Source of the DNA: a virus
DNA length: 60,684 nt
IMG/VR virus record: IMGVR_UViG_3300009129_000015
Span: 1 to 60,684 of that record
Direction: 5' to 3' (one strand)
Positions 6,525-36,708 of this stretch are shown piece by piece (positions within the stretch are counted from its first letter, which is position 1; every line of letters starts with the position of its first letter). The notes beneath the pieces were generated by a model. The model was not told the DNA's origin and ran no database searches. It saw nothing but the letters and a program-made list of their open reading frames with translations. The translations under genes and the position numbers were made by a program.

Positions 6525-6581
6525 TTGTTTTTTTGCCTCTTGAATCGTGATAGTTTTTGCGAGAAATTTAAGAAACACGAA

Positions 6582-10289: not shown

Positions 10290-10670
10290 TTAATTTAATT
10301 GGTCTATTGCCTGAAAGGCAACATCGACCAACCACACTATGATTCCTGCAATTACGGCTCCGATTGATGCTCCTGTATATACCTTTATCTTCAGTTTCAT
10401 TACTTCGTCGTTGAGGTATCTATATAACTTGTCGGACTGTTTTAACATATCCAAATGCTGTCTCAATGTTGCCACATTTTGTCTATAATCATTTACATCG
10501 TCTTGAGTAACTGAGCTTACTCCGCTATTATCTACAATATGTTTCAAATTTCTAAAATCGTGTCTTAGCTCCTTGAGTTCTTGCTCAAGTGCCCCAAACT
10601 CCCTGTCTGTAATTGACCAAGGCCATTTATATTTATCCTTGTCATTATGAGGATTGTTTCCGTTTGGCAT
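10290..10670 (-). CDS. Coiled-coil protein with C-terminal membrane helix
   Basis: 126 residues. Residues about 23-90 form a coiled coil (LEQELKELRHDFRNLKHI and a further heptad-rich stretch). Residues about 100-120 (ASIGAVIAGIIVWLVDVAF) are a transmembrane helix. Topology resembles XhlA-like haemolysin/holin-accessory proteins. It overlaps the HNH gene's 3' end by 26 nt. The lysis role is an inference from topology only. Confidence 0.6.
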   Translation of the reverse strand: MPNGNNPHNDKDKYKWPWSITDREFGALEQELKELRHDFRNLKHIVDNSGVSSVTQDDVNDYRQNVATLRQHLDMLKQSDKLYRYLNDEVMKLKIKVYTGASIGAVIAGIIVWLVDVAFQAIDQLN

Positions 10671-10965
10671 TTTCTTCGTTTTCCTTTTTGAGTCTGCGTT
10701 CCCTCAAACGAGGTTCCCTCCTATTGTAACGTTGACTCACCACGGAAAGATTTTTTTCGTCGTTGTTAAGGGGATTGTTGTCTTTATGATGAACATCTTT
10801 CCCCACAATATCTTCTTCGTTTTTTGTTTTTTTCTTGACTATCCTTCTGGCAGAATTTCGTTTAGACCTTCTCTCTATTTGGTCTGGGCGTGAATGGTAG
10901 TTTGCATATTCGCGTTTATAATCACGCTCTTCGAGTTCCTTTGAGAGTTTTCTGAAGGTCTTCAT
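10645..10965 (-). CDS. HNH-type endonuclease, possibly packaged in the head
   Basis: 106 residues, very basic. The core GKDVHHKDNNPLNNDEKNLS (about residues 55-74) is the D-H-H...N...N pattern of the HNH finger. The N-terminus MKTFRKLSKELEERDY matches the capsid-targeting-like leader seen in six other proteins of this operon, with an LEE site that gp21 could cut. It is the first gene after the late promoter at 10996-11003. The HNH call is fairly safe; packaging is inference. Confidence 0.75.
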   Translation of the reverse strand: MKTFRKLSKELEERDYKREYANYHSRPDQIERRSKRNSARRIVKKKTKNEEDIVGKDVHHKDNNPLNNDEKNLSVVSQRYNRREPRLRERRLKKENEENAKRKQSS

Positions 10966-10995
10966 ATGGCGTTTCCACCTCCATCCTGTATCTAT

Positions 10996-11003
10996 TATTT
11001 ATA
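10996..11003 (-). promoter_or_regulatory. T4-type late promoter
   Basis: Exact TATAAATA octamer on the minus strand, 31 nt before the HNH gene ATG. It is the element used by gp55-directed RNA polymerase. It would drive the genes from 10965 down to 7833. Confidence 0.75.
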
Positions 11004-11478
11004 TAATAGTTATTTCGGAGTTGGATATAAATGTATTTGCAGAAGTAATATTAAATGTATCAAGATCCCTGTATGATGTTGCAAAGCATTGCTCATTAAT
11101 AACAAATGCAGTATTTGTGTCCTGTGATATTACAGACAATTCTCCCGTATTGGCCAACAATGGAGTAAACTCATTCCATGTCCCAGATACCGAAAGTTCT
11201 TTGGGAGCAATCGTTATTGATACTGAATTATCATTTGATGCAACACATCCAAAGGCAACGCCATCAGTTCTTGACATTAATGCCGGAGAGGTTATTGTAT
11301 TGTTCAATGTCCACGCAGACCAATTGCCTTCCGTTCCCGTAAATGTGTCGATAGACCCTGTTGGAAGAAATCCAATCATTTGGCCTGTCGGCTCGGACCA
11401 TACTTCTTCTCCAGTATAATCGCAGGAAACCAGATATAAAAAATGATCCTTTGTAGAAACCATTGTAATTTTTCTCAT
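10999..11478 (-). CDS. Adhesin-cassette protein, paralogue of the gene at 46617-47111
   Basis: 159 residues starting MRKITMVSTKDHFLYLVS. It aligns with the 164-residue protein at 46617-47111 (MRKTTMIATEGHFLF; G-x-P-I/M-GF-x-x-x-G-x-x-x-T-F-T; FVI/VLE-x-x-C; D-L-x-T-F). Both copies lie downstream of a glycine-rich adhesin and a small protein of about 80 residues, so the set is a duplicated cassette. It is probably a virion or fibre-associated beta-rich protein or chaperone; no named family. Confidence 0.65.
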   Translation of the reverse strand: MRKITMVSTKDHFLYLVSCDYTGEEVWSEPTGQMIGFLPTGSIDTFTGTEGNWSAWTLNNTITSPALMSRTDGVAFGCVASNDNSVSITIAPKELSVSGTWNEFTPLLANTGELSVISQDTNTAFVINEQCFATSYRDLDTFNITSANTFISNSEITII

Positions 11479-11482
11479 ATGA

Positions 11483-11920
11483 TTACACCCATCCCTCCAA
11501 CACCATTGACTTCATATCTGCCGAAGTTACAGTCTTATCTCCTGCCACAGTTGAAATTGACGGTGGGGGAGTATCTGGAATTCCTTGTGCATACCATGAT
11601 GGAGTATATCCTTGCATAAAGTCATAGTAATTAGTTGCATCTTCTGGCATGATTTGATTTACCACAGAAGCATTATCAGAACGAAGCAATGTCAAGAACG
11701 AGGCATCTGTCGTTGCAGTCACAGAGAGATTGGTGCCTGACGGAACATCATTGACCGAAATTGCATCATAGGATGATCCTCCTATCGTCACAGTTCCTTT
11801 TGTGACCACAATCTGATACATCTCATCGACAGACCATGAGTAGTCAATCGTTTCTCCTGCGCTCAGGATATTTGCAATGACCAGACTCTTCTGGTCGAAT
11901 GTAGTTTTCACAGATGCCAT
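11483..11920 (-). CDS. Beta-rich adhesin-cassette protein
   Basis: 145 residues, MASVKTTFDQKSLVIANILS at the start, mostly Ser/Thr/Val-rich beta strands with little charge, like fibre tips or carbohydrate-binding folds. It lies between two genes duplicated elsewhere in the window, but I see no counterpart of it in the other cassette. Function unknown; a virion component is likely from context. Confidence 0.6.
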   Translation of the reverse strand: MASVKTTFDQKSLVIANILSAGETIDYSWSVDEMYQIVVTKGTVTIGGSSYDAISVNDVPSGTNLSVTATTDASFLTLLRSDNASVVNQIMPEDATNYYDFMQGYTPSWYAQGIPDTPPPSISTVAGDKTVTSADMKSMVLEGWV

Positions 11921-11932
11921 TATTTGTTTCTC

Positions 11933-12160
11933 CTAAGTGTTTATTCCTATAATTATATTATTTGCCGCAGCCAATTCCCTATGACCAAATACAAGTTCCT
12001 TGGCTTTGTTTTTTATCCATGCCATATCTGCGGTTCCGTCTTGATTTAACTCAAGACCAATATTTGCACAGTCTACTACAAGTTCTGCTCCGTCATGTAT
12101 TTTGACTTGACATACTTTTTGATCTGTATTCATATATATAATCTCGACTGTTATGTCCAT
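11933..12160 (-). CDS. Small adhesin-associated protein, paralogue of the gene at 47108-47371
   Basis: 75 residues. I chose the ATG at 12158-12160, which overlaps the adhesin's stop (ATGGACATAA) and aligns with the paralogue's start. Both share NIGLELN-(Q/P)-D-x-TA-x-x-x-WI-(K/R)-NK. It always follows a glycine-rich adhesin here, which suggests a fibre-folding or adaptor role. No named family. Confidence 0.65.
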   Translation of the reverse strand: MDITVEIIYMNTDQKVCQVKIHDGAELVVDCANIGLELNQDGTADMAWIKNKAKELVFGHRELAAANNIIIGINT

Positions 12161-14886
12161 ACGCCATCCCATCCCGCGACCGCATAATCTGAATTATGAT
12201 TTGTAACTGTTGTGTTTATTATAACGTTTGCGGTATCTGCCCAGACAATATTTCCTTGCCATCCGCCCTTATATGCAACGTGCCCAGAAGCATCGTTGGT
12301 TCCGTCAGATCCAAAATTAGAAGATCCTCCGGTTGTCATATTTCCGCCTGCGCCTCCAGCAGAACTAAGTCCTCCGCCGCCACCGCCGCCACCACCATAC
12401 ATTCTTCCGGTTGGCATATTAACAACATTAATATTCACAGTCTGTGTATTAGAAAATTGAGAGTTAGACTTTACATATATAGCAGATCCTCCTGCATGAC
12501 CATTAATTCCTCCCCCGCCACTAGCTCCAGAGCCAGCCTTGGCTCCTCCAGCCCCACCTCCATTCAAAGTTCCTTGGGCACCATCTGAAGCACCAGTCCA
12601 TTTCTCTCCGCCTTGGCCAGCCACCCAGGCCCCTCCGGCAAAATTATCGAGCGAGCCAAATTTTATTGAGCTTCCCCATGTTGGATGTAGCCCTTGGCCG
12701 CCACCGCCGCCGCCACCACCATGATTCTTTACTGAGCATCCTGTGGTAGAATCAGATCCCCCATATCCACCAGAGCCGCCTGCGCCGATTGTGTTTCCGC
12801 GATTTACAATCGTAATGTGCAAATCACCTAAACTAGAATTGTGAAAATGATTTGAATTTAAATTAATAATCAGGCTTGGATCAGAAAGATATTGACCAAA
12901 GGAATCTGATCCAGACCACGATGGATCCCAGTCCTTTCTTAATTCATATTTTGCTCCAGAAAAAGTTCCAGAACCACCCAAGGTTTGTGAACCAAAATTT
13001 CCAGAAGTGTTTGCACCAATATTCATTCCTTCTGGAATTTCAAAGATAATAAAAATCGGGCCATCTGTATAATCAATTGGTCCGCTTCCAGTTCCATTTT
13101 GTCTCAATTCGGCAAATGGATCTTTTGAGGTTCCTTCAAGACCTTCTGCAATATAATCTTCTGGAAATTGTATACCATAAAAATTCCCATCAGAATTTTT
13201 TCTACTGGTATAATAAGAAAGGGCATTCACATGAACAACTTTTGGAATTTGAAAATCTACAACTCCTCCCGAAGAATTATTATCGGTACTCACCGAAGAC
13301 GATTTAAATGACCCAGCCCCGGCACCAATTCCCCCACCGGGATTATATACAATAGGAAGTGTCCTAATTGAAGGTGGCTCTGGCCCAATCATCATCCCAT
13401 GAAGAATAAATTCACAATTTAAACTGTTGCTGGTTGCAGTTGCCCCGACTCCATATACAGGATGCCCGCCGCTGACTGGATTGTCTGGATCAATCCATTT
13501 CTCGATGGTATCCCCGGGCCCATAATTTCTCATTGTACATAATCCAAAACGATTCACGGAAGTAAACAGAGTATTTGATAAAAATGGCATACCACCAGAA
13601 ACAGATATTCCATCTCCAGATCCATATGGAGCGGCAACATTGGCAGAATATCTATGTGAAAGATCTAGTCCATATCCTGCCGAATTGGGATATTCTAATC
13701 CTGTGCCCGGATCTTCGAGTCTAAGCCTGGGAAAAAATCGACCGAAATGCCTCCGAGCCTGGTGATTGACCGGGCCGCCTTGGGTTCCGTCATAAAAATT
13801 AGAATTCCAAAAACCATCCCCATCTCCACCGTATCCAAAAACAGGATCTTCTACATGTGAATAATGTTCCCCTGAAATTGAAGTATTTCCACGGCCAGCC
13901 GAAGTCCCATTTGTAGGATTTAAATATCCACCAATTTTTCTTTCTGGTTTTCCGTCATATCCACCACCAGACATTCTTGAAAGATCCCAAGTAATTGAGA
14001 CTATTTTCCCCTTGTCTCTGGAAGACAATCCACTTCTTGGGTTTCTTGAACCCTCATGTCTCGGATATAAATTTCCATTTTCATCGTAAAGTGGAATTCC
14101 ATTAATGTGTGATGGTTTTAACCATCTAGTATTTGAATAACTATACTCCAGGTCTTCGCTCTCTCCTGCGTGCGGACCCCAAATACTGTCATATATTGAC
14201 AACGGGGCTGCAATGTCATATCCTACTTGATTTACTATAGTACCTTCGGTGCCGACCGTAGTATTTCCGTTTGTTGTGCCATTAAAATCAGGATGGGCAC
14301 TTCTTAATCTGCTCATTATTACCAAATCAAAGTCGAGTGGAAGTGGTCTATCCTTACTGAAAGTTGTAACAATTGTAAAATACTTATTAGCTTCGCTTAT
14401 CATTCCACCAGGAATTTTATCTGTATTCTGTTGATTTGAGGAATCGTTTTCAATTCTGGGAGAAATTGCATCGCTGTTAATATCTCCTGTATATCTAATT
14501 TCTATTAATTCTTTATATCCGTATTGTCTGTAGGTGCCTTCGTCGTCCGGGGTTTCGTGAAGAATATTATTGGTTCTTGAAACCTTCCATCCTGAAGAAA
14601 CTTTATCTACAGAATATACTTGATCGTATGCCCTGTTTGTTGCGCCCGAATGCGACTGATTGACTTGAATGAAAGGAAAGGCTGTATTCAGACTATACCC
14701 ACCAGTCGCTGGTTGTTCTCCGGTTGTCAGGGCCAGGGCGTTTGTTGGGCCCTTATTGGCATAACCGAGGTTGTTATAATTTCCAACAGATTGCCTGGAA
14801 AGATCCCAGGCCCAAGAATATGAATATGAATCTATGGATGATGTTACTGAAGAAACAATTCCAATTCCGGCGGGTGAAATTTTCAT
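12151..14886 (-). CDS. Glycine-rich receptor-binding adhesin
   Basis: 911 residues. The N-terminus MKISPAGIGIVSSVTSS...YSWAW is shared with the 233-residue protein at 19299-20000 and is likely a virion-attachment module. The middle has no clear family. From about residue 690 the protein becomes a glycine-rich tip with long Gly runs (SVKNHGGGGGGGGQG and others), like the polyglycine sandwiches of T-even gp38-type adhesins, which carry the host-range loops. It probably sits on the head spike or tail as a receptor-binding protein; the spike base gene is directly upstream in the operon. Confidence 0.75.
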   Translation of the reverse strand: MKISPAGIGIVSSVTSSIDSYSYSWAWDLSRQSVGNYNNLGYANKGPTNALALTTGEQPATGGYSLNTAFPFIQVNQSHSGATNRAYDQVYSVDKVSSGWKVSRTNNILHETPDDEGTYRQYGYKELIEIRYTGDINSDAISPRIENDSSNQQNTDKIPGGMISEANKYFTIVTTFSKDRPLPLDFDLVIMSRLRSAHPDFNGTTNGNTTVGTEGTIVNQVGYDIAAPLSIYDSIWGPHAGESEDLEYSYSNTRWLKPSHINGIPLYDENGNLYPRHEGSRNPRSGLSSRDKGKIVSITWDLSRMSGGGYDGKPERKIGGYLNPTNGTSAGRGNTSISGEHYSHVEDPVFGYGGDGDGFWNSNFYDGTQGGPVNHQARRHFGRFFPRLRLEDPGTGLEYPNSAGYGLDLSHRYSANVAAPYGSGDGISVSGGMPFLSNTLFTSVNRFGLCTMRNYGPGDTIEKWIDPDNPVSGGHPVYGVGATATSNSLNCEFILHGMMIGPEPPSIRTLPIVYNPGGGIGAGAGSFKSSSVSTDNNSSGGVVDFQIPKVVHVNALSYYTSRKNSDGNFYGIQFPEDYIAEGLEGTSKDPFAELRQNGTGSGPIDYTDGPIFIIFEIPEGMNIGANTSGNFGSQTLGGSGTFSGAKYELRKDWDPSWSGSDSFGQYLSDPSLIINLNSNHFHNSSLGDLHITIVNRGNTIGAGGSGGYGGSDSTTGCSVKNHGGGGGGGGQGLHPTWGSSIKFGSLDNFAGGAWVAGQGGEKWTGASDGAQGTLNGGGAGGAKAGSGASGGGGINGHAGGSAIYVKSNSQFSNTQTVNINVVNMPTGRMYGGGGGGGGGLSSAGGAGGNMTTGGSSNFGSDGTNDASGHVAYKGGWQGNIVWADTANVIINTTVTNHNSDYAVAGWDGVWT

Positions 14887-14922
14887 ATATTATTAATTCC
14901 TATTTTATGCTATAGGATATGA

Positions 14923-15300
14923 TTAATATAACCCAACCAACCCAGTAGAGGTTGTATTCTGCGCCGATCCAGCCGGAGTTGCTGCACTTTGCCCTGGATG
15001 ACCAGCAAGATTATAATCATAAACACCTTTTAGTCTGACAGGAAGGACTGTTCCTCCTATAACATTCTCAAAGAAAACATTTGCCGAATTATGAGTAGTA
15101 TTTCCTCCTGAGATTCTGCAAAATACATTTCCAGAAGTTCCAATATACAATCCTCGAATTGTGGTTGGAAGGTCAGCCTGACTTGGAGTAATTTGAAATG
15201 CATAACTCGCCGGGCTATCCAACTCCTGCCGTCTGGTAGAATATGCATCATCAGGAACCATTGTTCTTGATGGGGGATATGTTGCATTTACGTCTGCCAT
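14923..15300 (-). CDS. Spike base protein, RCAP_Rcc01079 family
   Basis: 125 residues. The pattern SYAFQITPSQADLPTTIRGL-YIG-x-x-GNVFCRISGG...VFFENVIGGTVLPVRLKGVY...GLVGLY is that of the widespread small phage protein known from the Rhodobacter capsulatus gene transfer agent as the head spike base (rcc01079). There it anchors a capsule-binding head fibre. Here it precedes the 911-residue adhesin, matching that base-plus-fibre order. The family call rests on the strong motif match. Confidence 0.75.
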   Translation of the reverse strand: MADVNATYPPSRTMVPDDAYSTRRQELDSPASYAFQITPSQADLPTTIRGLYIGTSGNVFCRISGGNTTHNSANVFFENVIGGTVLPVRLKGVYDYNLAGHPGQSAATPAGSAQNTTSTGLVGLY

Positions 15301-15301
15301 C

Positions 15302-15661
15302 TTATACTTCTCCTATGTTTTCATTTTTATAATTCTCTCCAATTTGCTCGGAGTAATAATCTAACAACTCTTCGGCAATTGCCTCTCTTGTCTTCTTGTC
15401 AACGGACTTTGCCCATCCTTTGCCTGCGTGTTCTTTTTCATACTTCTTTAGACCATCGGCAACGGCATACCCAAATGCCTTGATTGCCTTGTTCCCATCA
15501 TATGTGGCTTTCCCTACCTTCTTTGAGAGGTTTTTGATGATGGGCTGGATCCGCTGGCGATATATCTGGCTGTCGTTTGTGATATACAATACAAGTTCGC
15601 GAACTGTTGACTTATCTACAGCCTCGTATATGATTTTTTTGAGAGATTTAAAAGATTTCAT
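15302..15661 (-). CDS. Putative capsid-targeted internal protein
   Basis: 119 residues starting MKSFKSLKKIIYEAVDKS. The leader fits the T4 capsid-targeting pattern MK(T/S)F-x(n)-(I/L)xE, with IYE|A as the predicted gp21 cleavage point. The rest is helical and basic (KKVGKATYDGNKAIKAFGYA). It is directly upstream of the spike base gene. No family recognised. Confidence 0.6.
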   Translation of the reverse strand: MKSFKSLKKIIYEAVDKSTVRELVLYITNDSQIYRQRIQPIIKNLSKKVGKATYDGNKAIKAFGYAVADGLKKYEKEHAGKGWAKSVDKKTREAIAEELLDYYSEQIGENYKNENIGEV

Positions 15662-15666
15662 TTTAT

Positions 15667-16182
15667 TTACTTTCTTGCAGTCCCAGCCCGGACACCAGCC
15701 TTGGCCAAATTAGATCTTGCAACCCGCAAAGTTTCCCTGGCTCTTGCCTTTGCCTCTGGAGAATCTGATCCCTTTACAGACAGCCTTGCTGTTTTTATAT
15801 TACTCTTTGCTCTTATTAGTTTTTCTGCATTTTTTGAAATGGCGAGGGCCTTCTTTTCTCTTGCCTTAATCTTGGCCGCCCTGGCAGCCGCAGGATCAGA
15901 AGGCGCTTCTGAAACATCTTTATCGTCGGCGGCGCCGCCATCATCATCCAACAACTCAGGCATAATATATTCCACCAAATCAAAAAGCATTTCACTAATA
16001 TCAAATAATACTTCATTATTTTCTTTTTCAGAAATATTTAAAAGAGATTCTAAATGAGCCATTTCTTCTTGAAGGTCTACATACCTATCAAGAAGAACAT
16101 CTTTACGAATTGATTCGCGTAAGGTGTGATCTTCTGTCGAAGAATAAAATGCATTTAGTTTTTGAGTTGATAAATTTTTCAT
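15667..16182 (-). CDS. Coiled-coil protein with basic C-terminus
   Basis: 171 residues. Residues 1-80 are helical, then there is an acidic DDDGGAADDKD linker (about 79-89), then a highly basic Ala/Lys/Arg-rich helical tail (about 95-171). That layout suits a DNA- or core-associated virion protein. Its N-terminus MKNLSTQKLNAFYSSTED is a poor match to the capsid-targeting leader of its neighbours. Not recognised. Confidence 0.6.
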   Translation of the reverse strand: MKNLSTQKLNAFYSSTEDHTLRESIRKDVLLDRYVDLQEEMAHLESLLNISEKENNEVLFDISEMLFDLVEYIMPELLDDDGGAADDKDVSEAPSDPAAARAAKIKAREKKALAISKNAEKLIRAKSNIKTARLSVKGSDSPEAKARARETLRVARSNLAKAGVRAGTARK

Positions 16183-16234
16183 TTTAATATACTCCCAATT
16201 AAAATGGCGTGACTATTAATGATAATTATCTTTA

Positions 16235-16242
16235 TATTTAGG
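16235..16242 (-). promoter_or_regulatory. Possible variant late promoter (CCTAAATA)
   Basis: CCTAAATA on the minus strand, 53 nt before the ATG at 16182. It matches TATAAATA at six of eight positions. The same variant occurs at 33214-33221, ahead of another late gene. Weak evidence. Confidence 0.3.
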
Positions 16243-16255
16243 AAACTTAAACCTT

Positions 16256-16651
16256 CTATAATACAGAATTTAATCCCACAATCCCATGCCATGCATCCCC
16301 TGGATTCAGACCACTCACAGAAATCAGAGTATATTTCTTTGTCTGAGTAAGGTATGTGAGTTCCACGGGGAACTTCATGCGGTTGTCGAGTGCCATCTTT
16401 CCGATTGTGCATATAAGATGCCCGCCTCCTGTCTCGGTTTTACAAAACAACAAACGGCAGTCGTGCCCCTTTTCTTTCAGGAGCATCCGACAGGCAATCG
16501 CAAAGTCATCACAGTCTCCCTCGAAGTTGTCTACATTCTCTGGGAATCTCCAGTCCTCGCGAGTTCCATGCTGCTCCATGTCCGAAACATATGTGAATCC
16601 ATCTTTGACTCTATCAAATACGTCGAACGAATCTTTTACATAATCACTCAT
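16256..16651 (-). CDS. Transglutaminase-like cysteine peptidase (BTLCP-type)
   Basis: 131 residues. The sequence NFEGDCDDFAIACRMLLKEKG places the catalytic Cys at about 47, followed by GGGHLIC (His about 77) and a later Asp in MALDNR, giving a complete Cys-His-Asp triad of the bacterial transglutaminase-like cysteine proteinase group. The gene lies next to a lipoprotein and a membrane protein, suggesting envelope or virion work. Substrate unknown. Confidence 0.75.
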   Translation of the reverse strand: MSDYVKDSFDVFDRVKDGFTYVSDMEQHGTREDWRFPENVDNFEGDCDDFAIACRMLLKEKGHDCRLLFCKTETGGGHLICTIGKMALDNRMKFPVELTYLTQTKKYTLISVSGLNPGDAWHGIVGLNSVL

Positions 16652-16657
16652 ATATAA

Positions 16658-16930
16658 TTAACAATCCCATCCTTTCAATACCCACCCATCCGCGTTTGGT
16701 TCTTCTTCTGTAGGAACAATTGGTTCCAACGGACAGCACTTGGACTCTACGCTCCAGACACCCTTAATTTCTGTGGTCTTCTGCCATTGCATACATCCCC
16801 AAGGAGCAGGAGTCACTTCGCCAAATACAATGGGAGAATCTAATTCGGGGTCTGTGGGATTCGTTGCGGCTGGTGCAACACATCCGGTAAAAATAAAAAC
16901 TAAGACTATAAGTTTTATGTATTTTAACAT
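16658..16930 (-). CDS. Small lipoprotein
   Basis: 90 residues with a classical lipoprotein signal: KYIKLIVLVFIFTGC, lipobox FTGC with Cys17. The mature part is Pro/Glu-rich and has four further cysteines (the WGC site, a CC pair and a final C). Outer-membrane anchoring is predicted because the residue after Cys is not Asp. It could be an o-spanin-like or superinfection-exclusion lipoprotein; context (protease on one side, membrane protein on the other) is suggestive only. Confidence 0.7.
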   Translation of the reverse strand: MLKYIKLIVLVFIFTGCVAPAATNPTDPELDSPIVFGEVTPAPWGCMQWQKTTEIKGVWSVESKCCPLEPIVPTEEEPNADGWVLKGWDC

Positions 16931-16939
16931 ATCATTCTC

Positions 16940-17161
16940 CTATTGGTATATCAGCATTATTTGTAATGCAAAACAGGCAACGACTGGCCACCAGAATCCT
17001 TTGTGGTCAAAGTGCCCGAGCTTCTCCCAGTCTCGAATCTCTCGCCCAATATAGAATGCGGCACCCACAAAGAAGTTTTGAAATACGAATCCAATCACCA
17101 ATGCAATAATCAGATGATTGATGTAATACGGAAACCCTGTCTTGTATTTGAATAGACTCAT
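16940..17161 (-). CDS. Two-helix membrane protein
   Basis: 73 residues with two transmembrane helices (about 15-37 and 57-72) joined by a conserved-looking loop REIRDWEKLGHFDHKGFWW. The loop is familiar from small phage membrane proteins, but no function is established to my knowledge. The start overlaps the upstream gene's 3' end by 4 nt (ATGA-type). It may be holin-like. Confidence 0.65.
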   Translation of the reverse strand: MSLFKYKTGFPYYINHLIIALVIGFVFQNFFVGAAFYIGREIRDWEKLGHFDHKGFWWPVVACFALQIMLIYQ

Positions 17162-18684
17162 ATCTTCGGCTTCCCTACCATTATCTTCATTTTCTTTCCG
17201 GCACCCGTAAGGACACGTTCATACCATCCGTTGACCCCCGGATATTTTCCGTTGGGATTCTCTCCGACCCATTTGATTTTCTTTCCGGGCAGGAGCTTCT
17301 TGACTGTCTCCTCATCTGAAACCACAGGCACATCGTATCGAGTCAGAAGCACATGAGCAATTGCATCGGAAACTTCTCCGTAATTTCCTTTTTGGTTGAG
17401 CATCTTGGCAGTCTTGTTCAGCATGATTTTCTTTGCGGCAGCAGAACCGTCTGTTGCGCTTCCTCCGAACTTATTGCCGCCAGGGCCCTTCTTTGAAAAT
17501 CTCACGGCATCCACATCTGGGTCTTTGTCAATGTCATTGATAATCCAATCGGTGAAGTCCGAAGGCAAGTCTCCCGGCTTGGAGAAATCCACATATCCTC
17601 CGATGGGCGCATAGGTCTTGGTGATGAGATTATAGATGTCCTTGGTCACATCATTGTCTTTTCCAAGAACACTCACAGGTGCCTTGACCCACTTGCGCTT
17701 CTTTCCTTTGGTGAGCTTTGCCACCGAATCATCTTCGAGCAAATCCTGAGATACTGACCTCATGTATGTCGAAATGGTATCGGCAGTATCATGGACATGC
17801 ATTTTATACTTTTTGACTAATTTAATAAACTCATCATACTCTTCATTCTCTCCTCCAAAGTAATCCAAGATAGACCACTTGGCAAGAAGAACCCTTTTGA
17901 TTTTAAACTTGTTGACAACCAGTTCGTCCCATTCGGCAGTTGTTTCTCGTTTCAAAAGATAAGCCGAGATTGCCTTTCCGAGTTCCTTTGCATTCTTCTT
18001 CATGACGGACTCCATTCCGTCAAGATAATCCTTGATGACCAGATGCTGGAATTGTTTCAATTTCTTTTTGTTTGCCGGATTGGTTGGATTCAAATAATCT
18101 GGATTCAGATAATACCATGCGTCTTCATATTTTCTCCCGGCAATTTTCTTCTTGACAATAATTCGGTCTGGTTCGGGGATTGCAGGATGGTCAATGTGCT
18201 TGGTGACCAATGCTGCCAGAAGGGTTTCAATGTCCTTCTCCATAGTTTTAATTAATTTTACAGAATTGTCATAATTATTTTCAATAATCCCAGCCAAGTC
18301 TGCAAAAGAAACCCAGCGCCGGCCAGTCTTGTCTGGGATGCTCATGATGTCCATACGTTGGGCCACCAGCACATCGGCTTCCATCTCTACTGCAATCCCC
18401 CCGGCCTGATTGATTCCGTTGAGAATATAGAAAGGTTCTGCATAGGTCATTGCCGAAATTGATTTCTTCTTTCCTTCCAGCTTGACGAGCTTTCGGAAAT
18501 TCTCCGGGTCGGCAACGTGGAACACCCTCGTCCTCGGCGGCTTTCCGAATGCCCTTCGGTAGATGGGGGTGGAAAAAGGAATCTTCATGGATTCTATATT
18601 GTCCGCAAAAATAATCGCAGATGCCGACTTCTTCCATGCGACATCACGCTCGTATAGGTGCTGATTGAATGTTTTTCTTTTCAT
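17158..18684 (-). CDS. Large putative internal (injected) protein, possibly Alt-like
   Basis: 508 residues starting MKRKTFNQHLYERDVAWKK. The leader fits the capsid-targeting pattern (LYE|R). Residues about 40-130 hold, in order, TRVFHVADPENFRKL, then KSISAMTYAEP, then GGIAVEMEADVLV. That R ... SxS ... ExE order is what an R-S-E ADP-ribosyltransferase would show, as in T4 Alt, but the fit is imperfect and not proved. The C-terminal 150 residues (GNYGEVSDAIAHVLLTRYDV, NGWYERVLTGAGKKM) look like a second globular domain. Basic overall. Function otherwise unknown. Confidence 0.6.
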   Translation of the reverse strand: MKRKTFNQHLYERDVAWKKSASAIIFADNIESMKIPFSTPIYRRAFGKPPRTRVFHVADPENFRKLVKLEGKKKSISAMTYAEPFYILNGINQAGGIAVEMEADVLVAQRMDIMSIPDKTGRRWVSFADLAGIIENNYDNSVKLIKTMEKDIETLLAALVTKHIDHPAIPEPDRIIVKKKIAGRKYEDAWYYLNPDYLNPTNPANKKKLKQFQHLVIKDYLDGMESVMKKNAKELGKAISAYLLKRETTAEWDELVVNKFKIKRVLLAKWSILDYFGGENEEYDEFIKLVKKYKMHVHDTADTISTYMRSVSQDLLEDDSVAKLTKGKKRKWVKAPVSVLGKDNDVTKDIYNLITKTYAPIGGYVDFSKPGDLPSDFTDWIINDIDKDPDVDAVRFSKKGPGGNKFGGSATDGSAAAKKIMLNKTAKMLNQKGNYGEVSDAIAHVLLTRYDVPVVSDEETVKKLLPGKKIKWVGENPNGKYPGVNGWYERVLTGAGKKMKIMVGKPKI

Positions 18685-18691
18685 TTGACTA

Positions 18692-19294
18692 TCACCTGAA
18701 TGCTGCCAGGGCAGATTTCTGCTTGGCTACCTTTCCTGTATTTAAGAAGGTCTTCCATGAGAATCGGTCTGTTATATGTACTGTCGTAGAACCAGAACCG
18801 TGCAGACGAATTTGACGAAACCTGTCAAATTCCATAGTTGAAGAAACACTAAGAACCTTTTCGAGAACCTTTGCGGCAGTATGCAAATCCTTTGTGGCAG
18901 CCCGCCGATTTCCGCCTGAGATTCCCCGGTCATTCTCGTTATAGAACTCCATCCATCCATTTGATTCGAGATGTTGCCTCAATTCCTCCTGGGTGTCGTG
19001 GACACCGCTCTTCAGGTATTCAAGATTTTTTTGTGTTTCTTTATCGGGAACTCCAGTCTTTCCTTCGTCTGGGTCAATCCATCCTGCCTCGGCAATAATA
19101 GAAAGAATCTTCTTTTCGGTCAAGCCGAACTTCTTTGGGTTGTTGCACACAAACTGAATGTGCCACGGCTTCCCGTTGTTTTTGAAATTCCATAGGACAA
19201 TCTTCTTTGTCTTATAGTTGATCCAGCCCTTCTGGTTGTTGGTTCCACGGCCTTCTGTTATAAGCTGTTCTCTGAGTTGTTTGAATGTTTTCAT
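18692..19294 (-). CDS. Putative capsid-targeted internal protein
   Basis: 200 residues starting MKTFKQLREQLITEGRGTN. The leader matches T4 internal-protein leaders (MKTYQEFIAE) closely, with LITE|G as the expected cleavage. Next comes KGWINYKTKKIVLWNFKNNG and KFGLTEKKILSI, a module I have seen in other marine phage proteins, without a known role. No catalytic motif visible. Confidence 0.6.
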   Translation of the reverse strand: MKTFKQLREQLITEGRGTNNQKGWINYKTKKIVLWNFKNNGKPWHIQFVCNNPKKFGLTEKKILSIIAEAGWIDPDEGKTGVPDKETQKNLEYLKSGVHDTQEELRQHLESNGWMEFYNENDRGISGGNRRAATKDLHTAAKVLEKVLSVSSTMEFDRFRQIRLHGSGSTTVHITDRFSWKTFLNTGKVAKQKSALAAFR

Positions 19295-19298
19295 TTGT

Positions 19299-20000
19299 CT
19301 ATCCCATATGCGTTCTGATTGGAAGTGGAATGTCGGTGAGGATTCTGTCGGAGAGAACCATTCCGTGCCAAATCATACTGTTGCCACTAGAAAACCCACT
19401 TACGAAGTATGGAGCAATACCAATCGGAAGGTTTCCAGAAATATCTTTCCAATCTGTGCGGACGGTGGACGCCTCCCACAAATCTCCAAGTGTTGTCATA
19501 TCCCACACAATAATAGTTTTATTTTCATTGACATCATTTCGTATAATAGAAGTCGCCGGTCGAATCTCACCGCCCAACACAGAAAGGGTATAATATACGA
19601 GCAACGCTCCATCGGCGATTCCTGTACTAAATGGGGTTCCGGTAGTCCAACCAGAAAAATCAAATACTCCATGCATATACCTTGCCGAATTGAAATCTAT
19701 GACAGAGGCATCTAATTTACTAGATTTATCCGTGGCATCTGTTCCCTCGTCATAAAAAACTGGCAAAGAGGCTGGCCCTGTTGATGTTATTTTAATTCCT
19801 TTTGCATCATTTTCAAATTGTCCGGCTGGTGGGATCAGCGGAGCTACAACGGTGACATTACCTTCATAATCTGGAATCGACGAGTTATCATCATGAGTCG
19901 CCCCAATCGCATTCCATGCCCATGCATAAGGAAACATACTCCTTGCATTACATGCCTGTGATGTTGCGACTGCTCCAATTCCACCCGTTGACATTTTCAT
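19299..20000 (-). CDS. Fibre/adhesin-like protein sharing the 911-residue adhesin's N-terminus
   Basis: 233 residues. The N-terminus MKMSTGGIGAVATS...YAWAW aligns with MKISPAGIGIVSSV...YSWAW of the adhesin at 12151-14886, so both probably dock on the same virion site. The rest is a beta-rich domain (HGVFDFSGWTTGTPFST, MIWHGMVLSDRILT) with no family I can name. It has no glycine-rich tip. It lies inside the internal-protein cluster. Confidence 0.6.
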   Translation of the reverse strand: MKMSTGGIGAVATSQACNARSMFPYAWAWNAIGATHDDNSSIPDYEGNVTVVAPLIPPAGQFENDAKGIKITSTGPASLPVFYDEGTDATDKSSKLDASVIDFNSARYMHGVFDFSGWTTGTPFSTGIADGALLVYYTLSVLGGEIRPATSIIRNDVNENKTIIVWDMTTLGDLWEASTVRTDWKDISGNLPIGIAPYFVSGFSSGNSMIWHGMVLSDRILTDIPLPIRTHMG

Positions 20001-20473
20001 TATACTCCACCCACCTCCCCGCGTGCAGCAACGTCAACCTTGGATTGGCTCTTGGCCCACTTCTGAGCCTTTGCCTTGTTCTTGAATCCGCTGGAAACTG
20101 GCATCCACTTGTTTTGTCCTACATGACCCATCACATACCATTTCCCGTCGTTCGGATTTTTTTCTACGATATACTTCGAGTCGGCTTCGTTTACAGAAAC
20201 CTCTTTCCCAGTCGGACCCGATTGCGATTTCACGACCCACCCAGGGCCCTCGGGAAGTTTGTCACTCTTTAGTCCCTCGACTCGCTTGGCTGCCTTTGCT
20301 CCAAATTTCTTTCCGACCTTTGCTGCTCCGACAGAACTCGCAGACTGCGAGACATGACCGATGACCTTATAGTGCGTCACCCATCCCTTTTTATTCTTGA
20401 CGGCAACATAGACAGGAACCTGTCGTTTTCCTACATTGGTGGCTTCTGTGATATATTTCAGAAAGGATTTCAT
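20000..20473 (-). CDS. Putative capsid-targeted basic internal protein
   Basis: 157 residues starting MKSFLKYITEATNVGKRQ. This leader (ITE|A) is very like T4 MKTYQEFIAE|A. The mature part is Lys-rich, with a repeated short beta-beta-alpha unit: YIVEKNPNDGKWYVMGHVGQ followed by KAKAQKWAKSQ, resembling small DUF2188-like modules. Its stop abuts the adhesin-like gene. Confidence 0.6.
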   Translation of the reverse strand: MKSFLKYITEATNVGKRQVPVYVAVKNKKGWVTHYKVIGHVSQSASSVGAAKVGKKFGAKAAKRVEGLKSDKLPEGPGWVVKSQSGPTGKEVSVNEADSKYIVEKNPNDGKWYVMGHVGQNKWMPVSSGFKNKAKAQKWAKSQSKVDVAARGEVGGV

Positions 20474-20475
20474 TA

Positions 20476-20715
20476 TTACCTCCCCTTGACAGAACCCGAA
20501 ACGGTGGCAACCGAGACAGGCTTCCAGTAGTCCCCGGAAGTCTTCTTGTTTCGCTTGTCGGCTTCTTTCTGGGCCGCAGCTTTTGTTCGATAGACCTTCT
20601 TCCTGTCATACTTCCCATGCTCGTCCTGGGATTTGTCGGCCTGCGCGGAAGGATTTCTCTTGAACAGCCAGAACCCCTTCTTTCCTTCTTCGAGATATTT
20701 TTCAAAAGAAATCAT
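20476..20715 (-). CDS. Putative capsid-targeted small basic internal protein
   Basis: 79 residues starting MISFEKYLEEGKKGFWLFKR, with predicted gp21 cut LEE|G. The mature part is strongly basic with a single beta-helix unit (VYRTKAAAQKEADKRNKK). It overlaps the 661-residue gene's stop by 4 nt (ATGA). Size and charge match T4 internal proteins. Confidence 0.6.
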   Translation of the reverse strand: MISFEKYLEEGKKGFWLFKRNPSAQADKSQDEHGKYDRKKVYRTKAAAQKEADKRNKKTSGDYWKPVSVATVSGSVKGR

Positions 20716-22697
20716 TTCCGCCCCTCCGATGCCTTGAGTTTCGCCATTGCTGCCTTCCAGGCCTTGACACCCTTTGGGTTGTCTCCTCCTTTTCCGACTC
20801 CGGCGGCTCGCAGTTCTGCCTTGGAGGGGCTTCGCCCATTAATTCGCTTGTAGTTGCTGTTGAACATTCCCTGACGTTCGTCAAAGTCTGGATTGCGCTT
20901 CCGTGTGATGTTTCCGGGTGCATAGGTTTCATTTGTGGCAAACTTTTCAAGATCCCGCACAAGTGACCCAGGAGTCAGCTTCCCACCGGGGCGAACACCC
21001 ATGACCTTGTTTGCAGCCGTTTCTATTTCACGGAACTCTGCAAAGGGAATATCAAAGACCCGAGTCCTTGTATATTTTACCATGAGTTTCTTGTATTCCT
21101 TGGCTGCCTTTTTGGCTGCGCTGCGTTCCCATCCGGTCAGGCCGGAATTCGTTGCCTCGTCAAAAACAGTCGTCATCTCCTCAATCTCTTTCTCAATGTC
21201 CTCATATTCCCGAATGCCTTTTGCCATAATGTTGCCCTTGGCCGAAACTGTCATCTTCTGCAAACCAAAATGCTTCTTTGTTGCGGCAATTCTCTGAGAA
21301 TGTGAACCCTTTTGTTTCTCATAGAATGCCTTAATTTCGTCATGGTCAGGAATGCTGCCACCCTTGACCCTGAAGTGGCGATCACCTCCCATGCCACTCT
21401 CATAGACATTCACACTTTTTGCAGGGACTCCCTTGACTTTCTTTGATGACCCCACGGAAATGACATATGTCTTTGATGCCTTGTCATAGGAATCCACCTT
21501 GCCTTTTGTTTTCTTTCCTGTCTTTGGATCAGAAAAAGAAACCATGTCATACTTTCCAAAAACAGGATTTTTTCCTCTTCCGCTTTTTGAGGGATCGAGT
21601 GCAAGAGGGTTATCTAATTTCTTTTTCCCTTTTTTGTTTTTGAGCTTGTCTCGGAGCTTTGCGCGTTGCCCTGATAATCTCTTTGCTGCTGCCCGCGCTG
21701 TGGGCGACCGCAGCGGCTTGTCCTTCGGGAATTTCCCGCCCATGCCACCTTCGTCAACAATCTCCAAAAAATCCTCTTTCACAAGTTCTCCTGTATATCC
21801 CCGCGCAATCAGTTTCTTCAAAAATGCCTCGGCTTTTTTGTGGGTTGCCGGAGTTGTCGTTCCGGCAGGCTTTCCTGTCTTGGGATCGGAATACTTCACG
21901 ATCCACATTCCATCCTTTTTTCCTTCTTCAATCTCCTCTCCCCATCGCTTCTTTCCTGTCAGCGTGTCATATCGTGCCGCCTTCGCGAGAGCGTCATGGG
22001 ACTGACCATATTTGAATGTCTGTGTGCTTCCGGGTTGATTCCATCCTTTCACAATGATTCCGTTCATTCCCTGTTTCTTGACATTTTTCAAAAACTTCTC
22101 GGCTTCCTTCTTTCCGTCTACCACAGAAATCTTGACAGGGCCGCTCTTCTTTGCGGAATACTTCACGGTGTATGGGTCTTTGGATTGCCCCATTTTGTAG
22201 CCTGCGTCACGGGCTTCGTCCTGTCTGGCCAAATGGTCCCCATAATCCTTTCTGTTCTTCTTTGCACTTGCCGTCATTCCTTTTTCTTTCGACGCTGCCT
22301 TTTTGGCTTTCTTTCCTGCTGCCATGGCCTTTGCCCGAGTTGGCTCATTGCCTGTCATGACGGTGGTGTTCTTTCCATACTTGATGGTCTGGAGCATCCA
22401 TCGGAAATCCCCCTTGGGAGTTTTCTTTGTGTGTACCATGAGAACGTTTTCGTTCATTTCTTCTTCATTTTCTTCAAAATTCTTTCTCTTCGTAGTGATT
22501 CGCTTGTTTCGGGGGCTTTCTCCCGGTTGCCGTGAAATACTCTGTTTGAAGGCATTCCGTGTTCGTTTGTCAACAATCTTCTTGTCCTTGGGGGAAAGGG
22601 CGTCATACTCTTTCTGACTTCTGGGAGACTGCACTTCTCCGCGTTGTCTTGCGCTGGTGCCTTCGTCTAATACTCTGAGGTTTTTGAATGTCTTCAT
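20712..22697 (-). CDS. Large Lys-rich putative internal protein with internal gp21-like sites
   Basis: 661 residues starting MKTFKNLRVLDEGTSARQRG (LDE|G). Strongly basic and mostly low in hydrophobics. Two repeated modules can be seen: DPYTVKYSAKKSG...EAEKFLKNVKKQGMNG and GMWIVKYSDPKTG...KAEAFLKKLIARGYTG. Further (I/V)xE|G/S sites occur at EEIEEGKKDG, EIVDEGGMGGKF and NVYESGMGGDRH, so it could be a polyprotein cut into several internal peptides. It is the first gene of the late accessory operon, 54 nt below a TATAAATA promoter. No enzyme motif recognised. Confidence 0.6.
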   Translation of the reverse strand: MKTFKNLRVLDEGTSARQRGEVQSPRSQKEYDALSPKDKKIVDKRTRNAFKQSISRQPGESPRNKRITTKRKNFEENEEEMNENVLMVHTKKTPKGDFRWMLQTIKYGKNTTVMTGNEPTRAKAMAAGKKAKKAASKEKGMTASAKKNRKDYGDHLARQDEARDAGYKMGQSKDPYTVKYSAKKSGPVKISVVDGKKEAEKFLKNVKKQGMNGIIVKGWNQPGSTQTFKYGQSHDALAKAARYDTLTGKKRWGEEIEEGKKDGMWIVKYSDPKTGKPAGTTTPATHKKAEAFLKKLIARGYTGELVKEDFLEIVDEGGMGGKFPKDKPLRSPTARAAAKRLSGQRAKLRDKLKNKKGKKKLDNPLALDPSKSGRGKNPVFGKYDMVSFSDPKTGKKTKGKVDSYDKASKTYVISVGSSKKVKGVPAKSVNVYESGMGGDRHFRVKGGSIPDHDEIKAFYEKQKGSHSQRIAATKKHFGLQKMTVSAKGNIMAKGIREYEDIEKEIEEMTTVFDEATNSGLTGWERSAAKKAAKEYKKLMVKYTRTRVFDIPFAEFREIETAANKVMGVRPGGKLTPGSLVRDLEKFATNETYAPGNITRKRNPDFDERQGMFNSNYKRINGRSPSKAELRAAGVGKGGDNPKGVKAWKAAMAKLKASEGRK

Positions 22698-22750: not shown

Positions 22751-22758
22751 TATTTATA
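22751..22758 (-). promoter_or_regulatory. T4-type late promoter of the accessory operon
   Basis: Exact TATAAATA octamer on the minus strand, 54 nt before the ATG at 22697. It places the putative internal-protein operon under gp55 late control. Confidence 0.8.
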
Positions 22759-33307: not shown

Positions 33308-34651
33308 CTAGCCAGCAAGATTGTTGACTGCAAATGCCCTGTAGTATCGGTTGTTCTGACCAATCGCCACGGTGGAGATGCCAGTTGTCGTTGCAAATGG
33401 ATTCACACCGACACCGTAGCGGGTCTTGAATCCAATCTTGGGTTGGAATGTTTCCTCGCCAATTGCACGGACCATCTGGAGTGGAACGTATGGGCAGTAG
33501 AACATTCCTGCGTCATATGGCGACGATCCCTTATATCCGACACACACAAAGTCGTCTGCGGTGAAGGAGTAGGGGTCAATGTAGACCTTGAGTCCTGCAC
33601 CAATGGTTCCGGCAAATGTGCTTCCTGTGTCGTCTACCGTGAGTGCGGCAGTCGGGTCAAGAACACCAGCCGTTGCAAGAGCAGAAGCAACATCACTTGA
33701 GCAGAGAATGAAGTTGCCCTTCCCTCGACGAGTGTTCTTTGCAATGGCATTGGCTTCTGTCTCAATCTTGTAGACAAGAGCCTTGAATCGCTCCACAAGC
33801 CAGCGACCATCAAGTGAACCAAGCCCTGCTGCATTATTACCAGAAGGTGCGGCACCTCGGGCGTCAATGGCAGGTCTGCCAGTACAACTCATGTAAATCG
33901 AGCGAACAATTTCACGATTGATTTCTGCGTTGATCTCGGTCGTGAGAATATTTGCAAGCTCAGTCTCGGCATCAAGACCATGAATTGCCTTCAAGTCCTG
34001 TGCCAGTTCTACCGAATACTCTGCCTTGAGGGCCCGAGTAACGGCAGTCACACTCGACTTGTCGATCTTGAATGACATGGAAGGAATCTGGTTGGTTGCA
34101 GCAGAGCCCCATGCCTCGCCCTTTGCTGTCGTGTTACCTGTAAGAATACCAACATCTTCGGTTGACGCGGCATTGAACATGAGGTTGGCGTGCCCGGTGC
34201 CATTCCAGACAGGCTTGTTTGCGCCTGTGTTTGGATTGGCAGCCGAATAACCAGACTTGGCTTCGTCGTAGAATGCATTTGCGCCATCGGCATCGCCTTC
34301 GTTCCGCGTGCCATATGTTGGGCGAAGTGCAAAAATCAGACCCGTCGGGCCGGACATTGGCTGGACACCCATGACATCAAATGCAATGAGATTAGGAGCA
34401 GTTCGTCGCACAAGGCTGATAAGAACAGGGTCAAACTTGGCAACATCGCCCGTGACTGTTTCTGGGGCAAGAGATTCGCCAAGAAGACTTGTCGAACCCG
34501 CTCCTGTTACTGATGCTTGTTCTTGAAGAGCTATCTCTTGCTGCTCAAGCATGTGTGCTGTGACAACCTTTCGGTAATTATTCTTGATCTCAGGAAGATC
34601 CGTATGGTCAAGAACTGGTTGCCATTTGTTAACTAGCTGTTCATTCAACAT
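33308..34651 (-). CDS. 23: Major capsid protein gp23
   Basis: 447 residues, the short form typical of marine T4-like phages. It begins MLNEQLVNKWQPVLDHTDLP, carries a LLGE site near residue 58 where gp21 would cut the N-terminal delta domain, and has the MSGPTGLIFALRP and GRWLVERFKALVYKIETEAN blocks of the family. It forms the hexamers of the prolate head. A late promoter lies 60 nt upstream and a strong terminator follows. Confidence 0.95.
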   Translation of the reverse strand: MLNEQLVNKWQPVLDHTDLPEIKNNYRKVVTAHMLEQQEIALQEQASVTGAGSTSLLGESLAPETVTGDVAKFDPVLISLVRRTAPNLIAFDVMGVQPMSGPTGLIFALRPTYGTRNEGDADGANAFYDEAKSGYSAANPNTGANKPVWNGTGHANLMFNAASTEDVGILTGNTTAKGEAWGSAATNQIPSMSFKIDKSSVTAVTRALKAEYSVELAQDLKAIHGLDAETELANILTTEINAEINREIVRSIYMSCTGRPAIDARGAAPSGNNAAGLGSLDGRWLVERFKALVYKIETEANAIAKNTRRGKGNFILCSSDVASALATAGVLDPTAALTVDDTGSTFAGTIGAGLKVYIDPYSFTADDFVCVGYKGSSPYDAGMFYCPYVPLQMVRAIGEETFQPKIGFKTRYGVGVNPFATTTGISTVAIGQNNRYYRAFAVNNLAG

Positions 34652-34720: not shown

Positions 34721-35989
34721 TTATTGATTTTCAACAACAGTTCTTCCAAGCGTACTTACATATGCAGCCATCGTAGAGTTTGGTGGTGCCTCTTCGGTGC
34801 CTGCAAGACCATTCTCAGAAACTTCAAACTCTTCATCAAGGGTGGTCGTCTTTCCATGAACTGTCCTTGGGAAATAATTCTCTTTAATTGTCTCAAGAGC
34901 AGTTCGATATTGGTCTACATCTTCAAAAGCAACTCCCTCTGCAAGGCCCTTCATCTTCTCTGATTCAATATCAGTCAGTTCATCAGAAAGGCTTGTCAGA
35001 ATTTCATCCTTTTGAAATCCTTTGACCTTTGAAAAAAGGTCAATATTTTTTTCGACGGTTTCATTGAGTTCTTGTTCCAACTGGTCAACTCGCTCGGCAA
35101 GACTGTCTACCACATCGACCTTCTCTTCTGGAACATCAATGTAATGGTCTTCAAACAGTTGCTTGAGTCCACCAATAAATTCTTCGGTAATTTCCGACTT
35201 GATCCCGCGCTCGATTGCAAGTTCGTTGTCCTTGATCCATTCTTCTACAACATAGGACAGATAACTATCCACCTTGTCGGTGATTGTGGAAAGGATGGAT
35301 GCCTCTGATTCCTGCAACTTGGCACCAAATGATGCTTCCATTGATTCCAGTTCAGAATTAATCTTTGCAACCACGGCAGCTTCAAAAATTGTCTGAACCT
35401 GTGACTTGAATTCTTCTGAGAGATCATTCTCTCCAAAGATTGCATTAAGGTCTTCTGAAATATCAATATCATCGCTGGTAATGACCGTGCGCTCAATGGA
35501 AAGGGGAATTTCAATTGAATCGTCATCCTCATCTTCTTCTACAGCTTCTCCAAGAAGGTCGTCCATGAGCTTGGCATATGCACCTGCCAGCTTTTCGGCA
35601 TCTGTGTCCTTCATGGTTTCAAAGATTGAACGAATCATTTCTTGCTTGGTCGTGGGAAGGTCGCTCTCTTCGGCCACCTCTTCGGCAGACTCTTCCGCAT
35701 TAGTCTCTTCTTCTTCATAGACTTCAATTTCGGAAGGATCGTCGCCCTCTCCCTTGGTTTCTGCCCCTGCCTTGACCTTCTTCTTGCTCAACTTCTTGCC
35801 CTTGGGTGTGGCGGCCTTTGTTACCTTACCACTCTCAGGAGCAGAACCAGTTGCACCACTTCCAGGCTTGTCTGGAGATTCGGTAGAATCTTCTGCCAAT
35901 TCGTATTCAATCTCATTTGCAATATCATTTGCAATCTGGTCAATTTCTTCATCAATTGAGATTTCTGCGGTATTTAATTCGGTTGCCAT
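34721..35989 (-). CDS. 22: Prohead scaffold protein gp22
   Basis: 422 residues from MATELNTAEISIDEE; AAGGAG lies about 10 nt before this ATG and a longer frame lacks a site. Extremely acidic, helical and coiled-coil-rich (SLAERVDQLEQELNETVEK), with many (I/L)xE sites, as expected for a scaffold that gp21 degrades to peptides during head maturation. Position between gp21 and gp23 confirms the call. Confidence 0.85.
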   Translation of the reverse strand: MATELNTAEISIDEEIDQIANDIANEIEYELAEDSTESPDKPGSGATGSAPESGKVTKAATPKGKKLSKKKVKAGAETKGEGDDPSEIEVYEEEETNAEESAEEVAEESDLPTTKQEMIRSIFETMKDTDAEKLAGAYAKLMDDLLGEAVEEDEDDDSIEIPLSIERTVITSDDIDISEDLNAIFGENDLSEEFKSQVQTIFEAAVVAKINSELESMEASFGAKLQESEASILSTITDKVDSYLSYVVEEWIKDNELAIERGIKSEITEEFIGGLKQLFEDHYIDVPEEKVDVVDSLAERVDQLEQELNETVEKNIDLFSKVKGFQKDEILTSLSDELTDIESEKMKGLAEGVAFEDVDQYRTALETIKENYFPRTVHGKTTTLDEEFEVSENGLAGTEEAPPNSTMAAYVSTLGRTVVENQ

Positions 35990-36039
35990 TATATCCATCT
36001 CCTTAGAAAGAATGGAAGAATCCAAAGGTTATTCTTAGT

Positions 36040-36051: not shown

Positions 36052-36708
36052 CTACAATTTTGACAAGAAGTTTTTGAAGAGATTTATCTTTGCCTCTTCC
36101 AACTCCTTCCTTCTTGCTTCCATGTTTACTTGCTTCTTGTATTGTTCTATTTCTTTTTCTCGTATGACGCCATTATCCCAGATCCATTCCTTCCCCTCCA
36201 TGATACCCTCGACAAATGCTTCTGGAGCAGACGGGTCTGCAACAATATCTGCGGCAGTTGCAAGATAAAAGTCATCTTGAACCACATTGGTTCCACGTTG
36301 ATTCTTGAGTGAACCCATGCCGCGTGAAGAAACACCCAACTTGGCACCTTCGTCAATGAGATTCTTGACAATCTTGCCATAGGGAGTGTCCATGATCTTT
36401 GCCTTGCCAATCCAGTTGTTTCCATCTTCCTTGAGTTCCTTAATCATATGCGAAACTCGTTCAAGGTTGACTACCGGACCATCGGGGTGGCCAAGTTCTC
36501 CAAATGCCCTGTTCTGGTCAACATAGTTTCCGATGTACTTGTATACTTCTTTGTTCAGGACTTCTTTGGGATAGATGCGGCCATTGCGATTCTTTTGTTC
36601 GGCTTGCATGAACACGCCCTTGATATAATGACTCTTTTCACCTTTGGCATTCTCTTCTGTGACAAACTCAATATTTTCGTCTGTCATGATTTCGGTGATT
36701 AGCTTCAT
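36052..36708 (-). CDS. 21: Prohead core protease gp21
   Basis: 218 residues, standard family length. NGRIYPKEV, catalytic His in FGELGHPDGP (about 74) and catalytic Ser in GVSSRGMGSL (about 127/128) mark the T4 prohead protease family. It is also its own likely substrate: MKLITE|IM at the N-terminus fits the (I/L)xE rule. It cleaves gp22, gp23 and packaged internal proteins during maturation. Confidence 0.93.
   Translation of the reverse strand: MKLITEIMTDENIEFVTEENAKGEKSHYIKGVFMQAEQKNRNGRIYPKEVLNKEVYKYIGNYVDQNRAFGELGHPDGPVVNLERVSHMIKELKEDGNNWIGKAKIMDTPYGKIVKNLIDEGAKLGVSSRGMGSLKNQRGTNVVQDDFYLATAADIVADPSAPEAFVEGIMEGKEWIWDNGVIREKEIEQYKKQVNMEARRKELEEAKINLFKNFLSKL

Follow-up and report, generated by a model that had tools for sequence, protein, structure and literature searches.

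A T4-type leader on seven basic proteins of an uncultured myovirus suggests internal head proteins and modular polyproteins

The 60,684-base IMG/VR record IMGVR_UViG_3300009129_000015, referred to in its whole length as the window, belongs to an uncultured T4-like myovirus of bacteria. Seven genes in one operon on its minus strand encode proteins that start with a short leader resembling the capsid-targeting sequence (CTS) of T4 internal proteins. The seven are likely internal head proteins processed by the prohead protease gp21, some of them derived from modular polyproteins, a form that the first-pass annotation of the window overlooked for the 661- and 157-residue proteins and perhaps for the 508-residue one. 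The sequence-level support consists of the leaders, the cleavage motif, the swapping of modules between leader and internal positions, the late promoters, and the linkage to T4 head genes.

By analogy to T4, the N-terminal leader of 10–14 residues would dock each protein to the gp22 core of the prohead. gp21 would cut after the Glu residue of the leader, following an (I/L/V)xE rule, and also at internal junctions. The 661-, 157-, and perhaps 508-residue proteins would comprise two or more basic modules split by the cleavage motif, and one leader could load several proteins that gp21 would then separate. Judging from their charge, the basic mature proteins may stay with the packaged DNA; they may enter the host together with it and act there, as suggested by T4 IP1-3 and Alt (PMC3012670, PMC12373910, PMC9391042). 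The sequences make packaging and leader cleavage highly probable, and the cutting of polyproteins fairly probable. By analogy, ejection into the host is fairly probable too, and the chances that the proteins serve in anti-defense or host take-over are about even.

Leader genes and their operon

The seven open reading frames (ORFs) and their N-termini, checked against the sequence, are as the first-pass annotation had given them (the vertical bar marks the predicted cleavage site):

20712..22697, minus strand: 661-residue leader protein, MKTFKNLRVLDE|G; candidate polyprotein
20476..20715, minus strand: 79-residue leader protein, MISFEKYLEE|GKKGFW; its start overlaps the stop of the 661-residue protein gene
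20000..20473, minus strand: 157-residue two-module leader protein, MKSFLKYITE|A ... SVNE|ADSKYIVEKN
18692..19294, minus strand: 200-residue leader protein, MKTFKQLREQLITE|G; no known family
17158..18684, minus strand: 508-residue leader protein, MKRKTFNQHLYE|R; N-terminal family domain and C-terminal huge-phage domain
15302..15661, minus strand: 119-residue leader protein, MKSFKSLKKIIYE|A
10645..10965, minus strand: 106-residue HNH-type leader protein, MKTFRKLSKELEE|RDYKREY
22751..22758, minus strand: T4-type late promoter TATAAATA, 61 bases upstream of the 661-residue protein gene start
10996..11003, minus strand: T4-type late promoter TATAAATA, 38 bases upstream of the gene for the HNH-type leader protein

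The leaders have the form of a T4-type CTS: they are short, with an aromatic residue at position 4, a hydrophobic residue at position 7, and an (I/L)xE end (LDE, LEE, ITE, ITE, LYE, IYE, and LEE). The leader of the 508-residue protein is two residues longer than the T4 spacing. In T4, a Glu-to-Asp exchange in the leader prevents processing, though not targeting. In the leader of T4 IPIII, residues 4 and 7 function in targeting and residues 8 and 10 in processing, and T4 gp21 cuts after L/I-x-E (PMC9026906). The leader genes use differing synonymous codons, which indicates conservation at the protein rather than the DNA level and rules out a DNA-level repeat as the source of the shared leader. 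The mature proteins are all basic, as previously noted, with isoelectric points of 9.0–10.3, compared to values below 7 for 20 of the 22 other genes tested. The single operon described earlier is borne out by a closely spaced minus-strand run from 22697 down to 9931 with intergenic gaps of −46 to +73 bases, in which the leader genes are interspersed with other, mostly acidic, genes.

The sequence TATAAATA is the T4 late promoter. It occurs eight times in the window (1.85 expected), and seven of the sites are on the minus strand, 28–67 bases upstream of gene starts. Five of these seven are in the virion-gene block, and the other two are the exact matches preceding the first and last leader genes of the operon, for which late expression is predicted.

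The presumed partners of the leader are encoded in the window. The genes for gp17, gp18, gp19, gp20, a gp67-like protein, gp21, gp22, and gp23 are consecutive on the minus strand, confirming the earlier identification of gp21. Thus, both a gp21-type protease and a gp22-type core protein are present, as a T4-type CTS system requires:

36711..36893, minus strand: small core protein, gp67-like by its position in the gp20-gp21 interval; phrog_2088 (E 1.9e-6), an unnamed family
36052..36708, minus strand: gp21 prohead protease, phrog_207 (E 7e-85); presumed processing enzyme
34721..36025, minus strand: gp22 scaffold/core protein, phrog_237 (E 6e-73); presumed docking partner of the leader
33308..34651, minus strand: gp23 major capsid protein with a conserved LLGE|S

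T4 gp23 is cut at FLTE|A. The LLGE|S of the window and two relatives occupies the same place, and fits processing of gp23 by the same protease rule as that of the leaders.

Direct DNA and protein similarity searches of four of the seven proteins against named phages found almost nothing. For the 119-residue protein, Pseudomonas phage PspYZU01 yields a weak match that starts at residue 16. A homologue of the 200-residue protein in G001 (79% identity) has the leader MKTFKQLREQLLDE|A, and a distant relative, L295, is also leader-bearing. The operon additionally contains a transglutaminase-like cysteine proteinase (Peptidase_C93, E 1.3e-9; 16256-16651, minus strand), which has no leader and is 57% identical to its counterpart in G003.

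Conservation of the leader and its linkage to head genes

The leader motif is present in seven of the 62 minus-strand ORFs. None of 5000 shuffles reached this number (mean 0.39, maximum 4), rejecting a chance origin of the cluster, and 0.47 matches are expected from internal positions of the same proteins (P 5e-7). Because the motif was set after inspecting the sequences, independent tests carry more weight than this enrichment. In a control with 73 ORFs of T4, the motif identified ipII and ipIII, missed ipI, which has a longer leader, and falsely identified lysozyme e. A single match is therefore weak evidence, whereas a cluster of matches is not.

A blind scan of IMG/VR fixed only codons 1-8 (MK[ST]FK[QE][FY] followed by a hydrophobic residue). 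Glu was found at residue 10 in 72 of the 81 non-redundant proteins; its frequencies at positions 9 and 11 were 0.11 and 0.06, respectively. The first-pass annotation had held that homologues lacking the leader would contradict its proposal. When homologues of the 508-residue protein were sought with a profile starting after the leader, 47 of 49 were found to have one, 40 of them with strict T4 spacing, even though their mature parts are only 32–43% identical, one close relative excepted. The leader is kept across homologues while the cargo differs in kind. Furthermore, a T4-type portal or gp21 is encoded in 18 of 30 leader-bearing contigs of at least 30 kb, but in only three of 30 random ones (P 5e-5); among contigs of at least 60 kb, the numbers are 12 of 13 and three of 14. 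One part of the leader contig set was selected with Glu in the pattern, and the other part without. The proposed match to the T4 leader is upheld by the blind Glu10 result, the retention among homologues, and the head-gene linkage, together with the late promoters and basic cargo.

Leader genes are also found in the cultured Pelagibacter phage HTVC008M (MKSFKDFQNVNE|K at 113582 and MLSFTGYSNLSE|A at 103767) and Methylophilales phage Melnitz. A 14-kb contig (L143) has four different leader genes in a cluster; one of the encoded proteins (FYRGLS...) resembles, by eye only, the start of an ADP-ribosyltransferase. A homologue from a leader family other than the window's seven is a virion protein of jumbo phage PA5oct, detected by electrospray ionization tandem mass spectrometry (ESI-MS/MS). 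However, the leader motif has few matches at the annotated starts of PA5oct, the virion proteins of which seem to use other short starts, so this phage is not a clean test of the leader.

Modular proteins and internal junctions

The 157-residue protein consists of two modules linked by SVNE|ADSKYIVEKN. The second module, of 61 residues, has a leader gene of its own both in G003 (MKSFRQHITE|ADSRYIVEKN) and in G001 (MKSFQSYIIIAE|ADLSKYIVEKN); in G001, the first module also forms a separate leader gene. In the 661-residue protein, candidate sites follow residues 12, 83, 258, 316, and 433, and a weaker one follows residue 515. Comparison with its 410-residue homologue from G001, in which the internal motif is enriched with a shuffle P of 0.03, reveals modules gained or lost near MNE/INE|NVLMV and VDE/IEE|GGMG. 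The internal IEE|GKKDGMW of the 661-residue protein resembles the leader junction of the 79-residue protein. The 508-residue protein joins a domain standing alone in relatives to a C-terminal domain standing alone in huge phages, and the junction between them is LLE|DDS or LIE|DDS.

Among all loci examined, the 61-residue module occurs in 11 leader and three internal contexts, the HNH module in four and three, and a DUF6321-like module in six and six. The contexts were told apart by the length of the upstream open frame, and the automatic leader label is loose. Only these three hand-checked module families were used; many internal matches from the automatic scan were frame or start artefacts. 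In all 12 internal contexts, Glu is at the junction or one residue earlier, and in about eight, I/L/V is located two residues before it. The junction Glu, the exchange of modules, and the domain fusion in the 508-residue protein are best explained by the leader-removing protease also cutting between modules.

The DUF6321-like module forms the C-terminal end of large proteins in L395, L239, L250, L263, L248, and L252, always just after Glu, which makes these proteins candidates for further gp21 polyproteins. In L138, near 10288 on the minus strand, the HNH module is positioned behind a domain ending in KAWLHDI, with TLDE|RNY between them.

Cargo, alternative explanations, and related systems

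Only the HNH-type protein among the window's seven has a family match: phrog_4590 (2.8e-11), phrog HNH families (3e-5), and HNH_3 (2.9e-5; 24.1 bits, just below the 24.8 cut-off). Its homologue in G003 has a leader. The leader cargo of relatives includes adenylate kinase, RNA ligase, GNAT, HAD phosphatase, glucosaminidase, lysozyme, DUF6267, and DUF192, and that of G003 a zeta-toxin-like P-loop kinase and a weakly 5'-nucleotidase-like protein. Because the survey also caught one capsid protein of the HK97 type and some proteins of tail type, matching the leader is not in itself proof.

The structure of the 508-residue protein was predicted from a 42-sequence alignment with a predicted local distance difference test (pLDDT) score of 89.9 and a predicted template modeling score of 0.86 (a three-sequence alignment gave a useless model, pLDDT 39). 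Arg51, Phe55, His56, Ser77, Glu100, and Glu254 vary hardly or not at all. The conserved Arg51, Ser77, Glu100, and Glu254 and the strand-helix order recall ADP-ribosyltransferases, and the protein might be a packaged enzyme functionally similar to T4 Alt. However, this is rather unlikely, since Foldseek searches of PDB and BFVD with the confident model returned no significant match (best E 0.077 and 0.4, respectively), and the sequence has no match in Pfam or NCBIfam. The identity remains a motif lead and is not assigned.

Several observations weigh against gp21-processed internal head proteins and polyproteins. The leader pattern yields an occasional false positive, as in the case of T4 lysozyme e; the PA5oct homologue retains MKSFRDYY without the Glu; the nearest relatives are few, and one of them, G002, stops before the leader operon; the enrichment of the motif within the 661-residue protein alone is weak and not significant (shuffle P 0.09); and in about four of the 12 internal junctions, the position two residues before Glu is not I/L/V. 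The chance match in lysozyme e would fit a shared N-terminus that is unrelated to the head and reflects only a generic amphipathic beginning among small phage proteins. This explanation is very improbable given Glu10 in the blind matches, the linkage to T4 head genes, the retention of the leader among homologues, and the mature modules that start just after Glu in internal contexts too. The weak enrichment and the incomplete junctions would be compatible with ordinary acidic linkers that gp21 leaves uncut, so that the 661- and 157-residue proteins act whole except for the leader. That is the less likely interpretation, because the same module begins directly after Glu both in a leader gene and internally, and homologues differ by whole modules near these junctions.

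It is also conceivable that the leader docks and is cut, but that the proteins are only structural: basic material filling the head, which would condense the DNA or give the head its shape, rather than injected effectors. All seven are very basic, the modules of the 661- and 157-residue proteins are small and lysine-rich, and T4 IPIII mutants have head-assembly defects (PMC9026906). However, several cargo proteins of relatives are enzymes for which a structural function is not apparent (adenylate kinase, RNA ligase, GNAT, HAD, zeta-like kinase, and HNH), and T4 Ip1-3 are anti-restriction proteins (PMC12373910), making a purely structural role less likely. Upstream of the leader operon, the window encodes a Mom family protein (PF25680, E 1e-10; 25220-26176, minus strand), conserved at 81–82% in G001 and G003, which is probably a DNA modification gene. 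Its presence makes a role of leader proteins against modification-dependent restriction plausible at best.

Elsewhere in the window, a CobS/CbbQ-like AAA ATPase (AAA_5, E 5.6e-18; 2691-3959, minus strand) adjoins an 847-residue protein without a Pfam family (4053-6596). Also encoded are an Endonuclease I family protein with a signal-like N-terminus (PF04231, E 1e-28; 8007-8777, minus strand) and an A-type iron-sulphur cluster assembly protein (PF01521, E 1.5e-14; 8747-9130, minus strand), the latter also present in G003 and a candidate auxiliary metabolic gene. The low end of the window has a pair of paralogous small ORFs (436-678 and 1915-2181, minus strand; 32% identity). A small gene pair is duplicated at 10999-12172 and 46617-47371 (minus strand; 33% and 45% identity), beside large glycine-rich proteins in the window and G003 alike. 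The G002 record (L088-L091) is 99–100% identical over the common virion genes and has a 5879-residue ORF, of which the window holds only the last 1416 residues.

It is somewhat more probable than not that, in T4-like phages of uncultured bacteria, the leader serves as a general packaging tag and modular polyproteins carry prohead-protease sites in its place. One tagged chain would deliver several effectors, and modules would move freely between their own leader gene and a polyprotein. T4 internal proteins were long mysterious, and those with known targets are anti-restriction proteins. If correct, the proposal would allow injected proteins to be recognized at scale by a rule based on sequence: a reliable tag and internal-junction rule would list head-carried proteins among the unknowns of T4-like phages from sequence alone, and the polyprotein form would account for large unknown ORFs in late operons.

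The window's proteins resemble T4 IPI, IPII, and IPIII in the form and spacing of the leader (MKTYQEFIAE|A in ipII and ipIII), the gp21 rule, the basic cargo, and the predicted late expression. The longer leader of IPI, MKTFKEFTSTTTPVSTITE|A, ends in ITE|A and matches the longer leaders of the window. At least ten CTS-bearing internal proteins have been reported in T-even phages (PMC12373910). However, the T4 internal proteins are small and single. In the window, one operon holds a greater number of leader genes, the cargo is unrelated, the proteins are far bigger, and some are candidate modular polyproteins with putative internal sites. Like T4 Alt, the 508-residue protein is large, enzyme-sized, and thought to be packaged and N-terminally processed, but it has no detectable sequence or fold relation to ADP-ribosyltransferases. 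Polyvalent proteins of phages and plasmids combine several unlike domains in a single polypeptide, whose delivery together with DNA has been proposed (PMC5512222); the 661- and 508-residue proteins are multi-module and may be delivered with the DNA as well. The processing of polyvalent proteins is attributed to their own peptidase domains (PMC5512222), whereas the window has prohead-protease-type sites and a T4-type N-terminal tag. The inner-body and ejection proteins of phiKZ and SPN3US are head proteins as well, and a relative of gp21 removes their propeptides by cutting after Glu; phiKZ has S/A-x-E as its motif, and most of the propeptides are long (PMC9026906, PMC5694885), in contrast to the I/L/V-x-E and 10–14 residue leaders of the window. 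Three features are new as far as the open literature searched shows: the exchange of cleavage junctions between leader and internal positions, the proposed polyproteins built of modules, and the wide range of cargo among uncultured T4-like phages.

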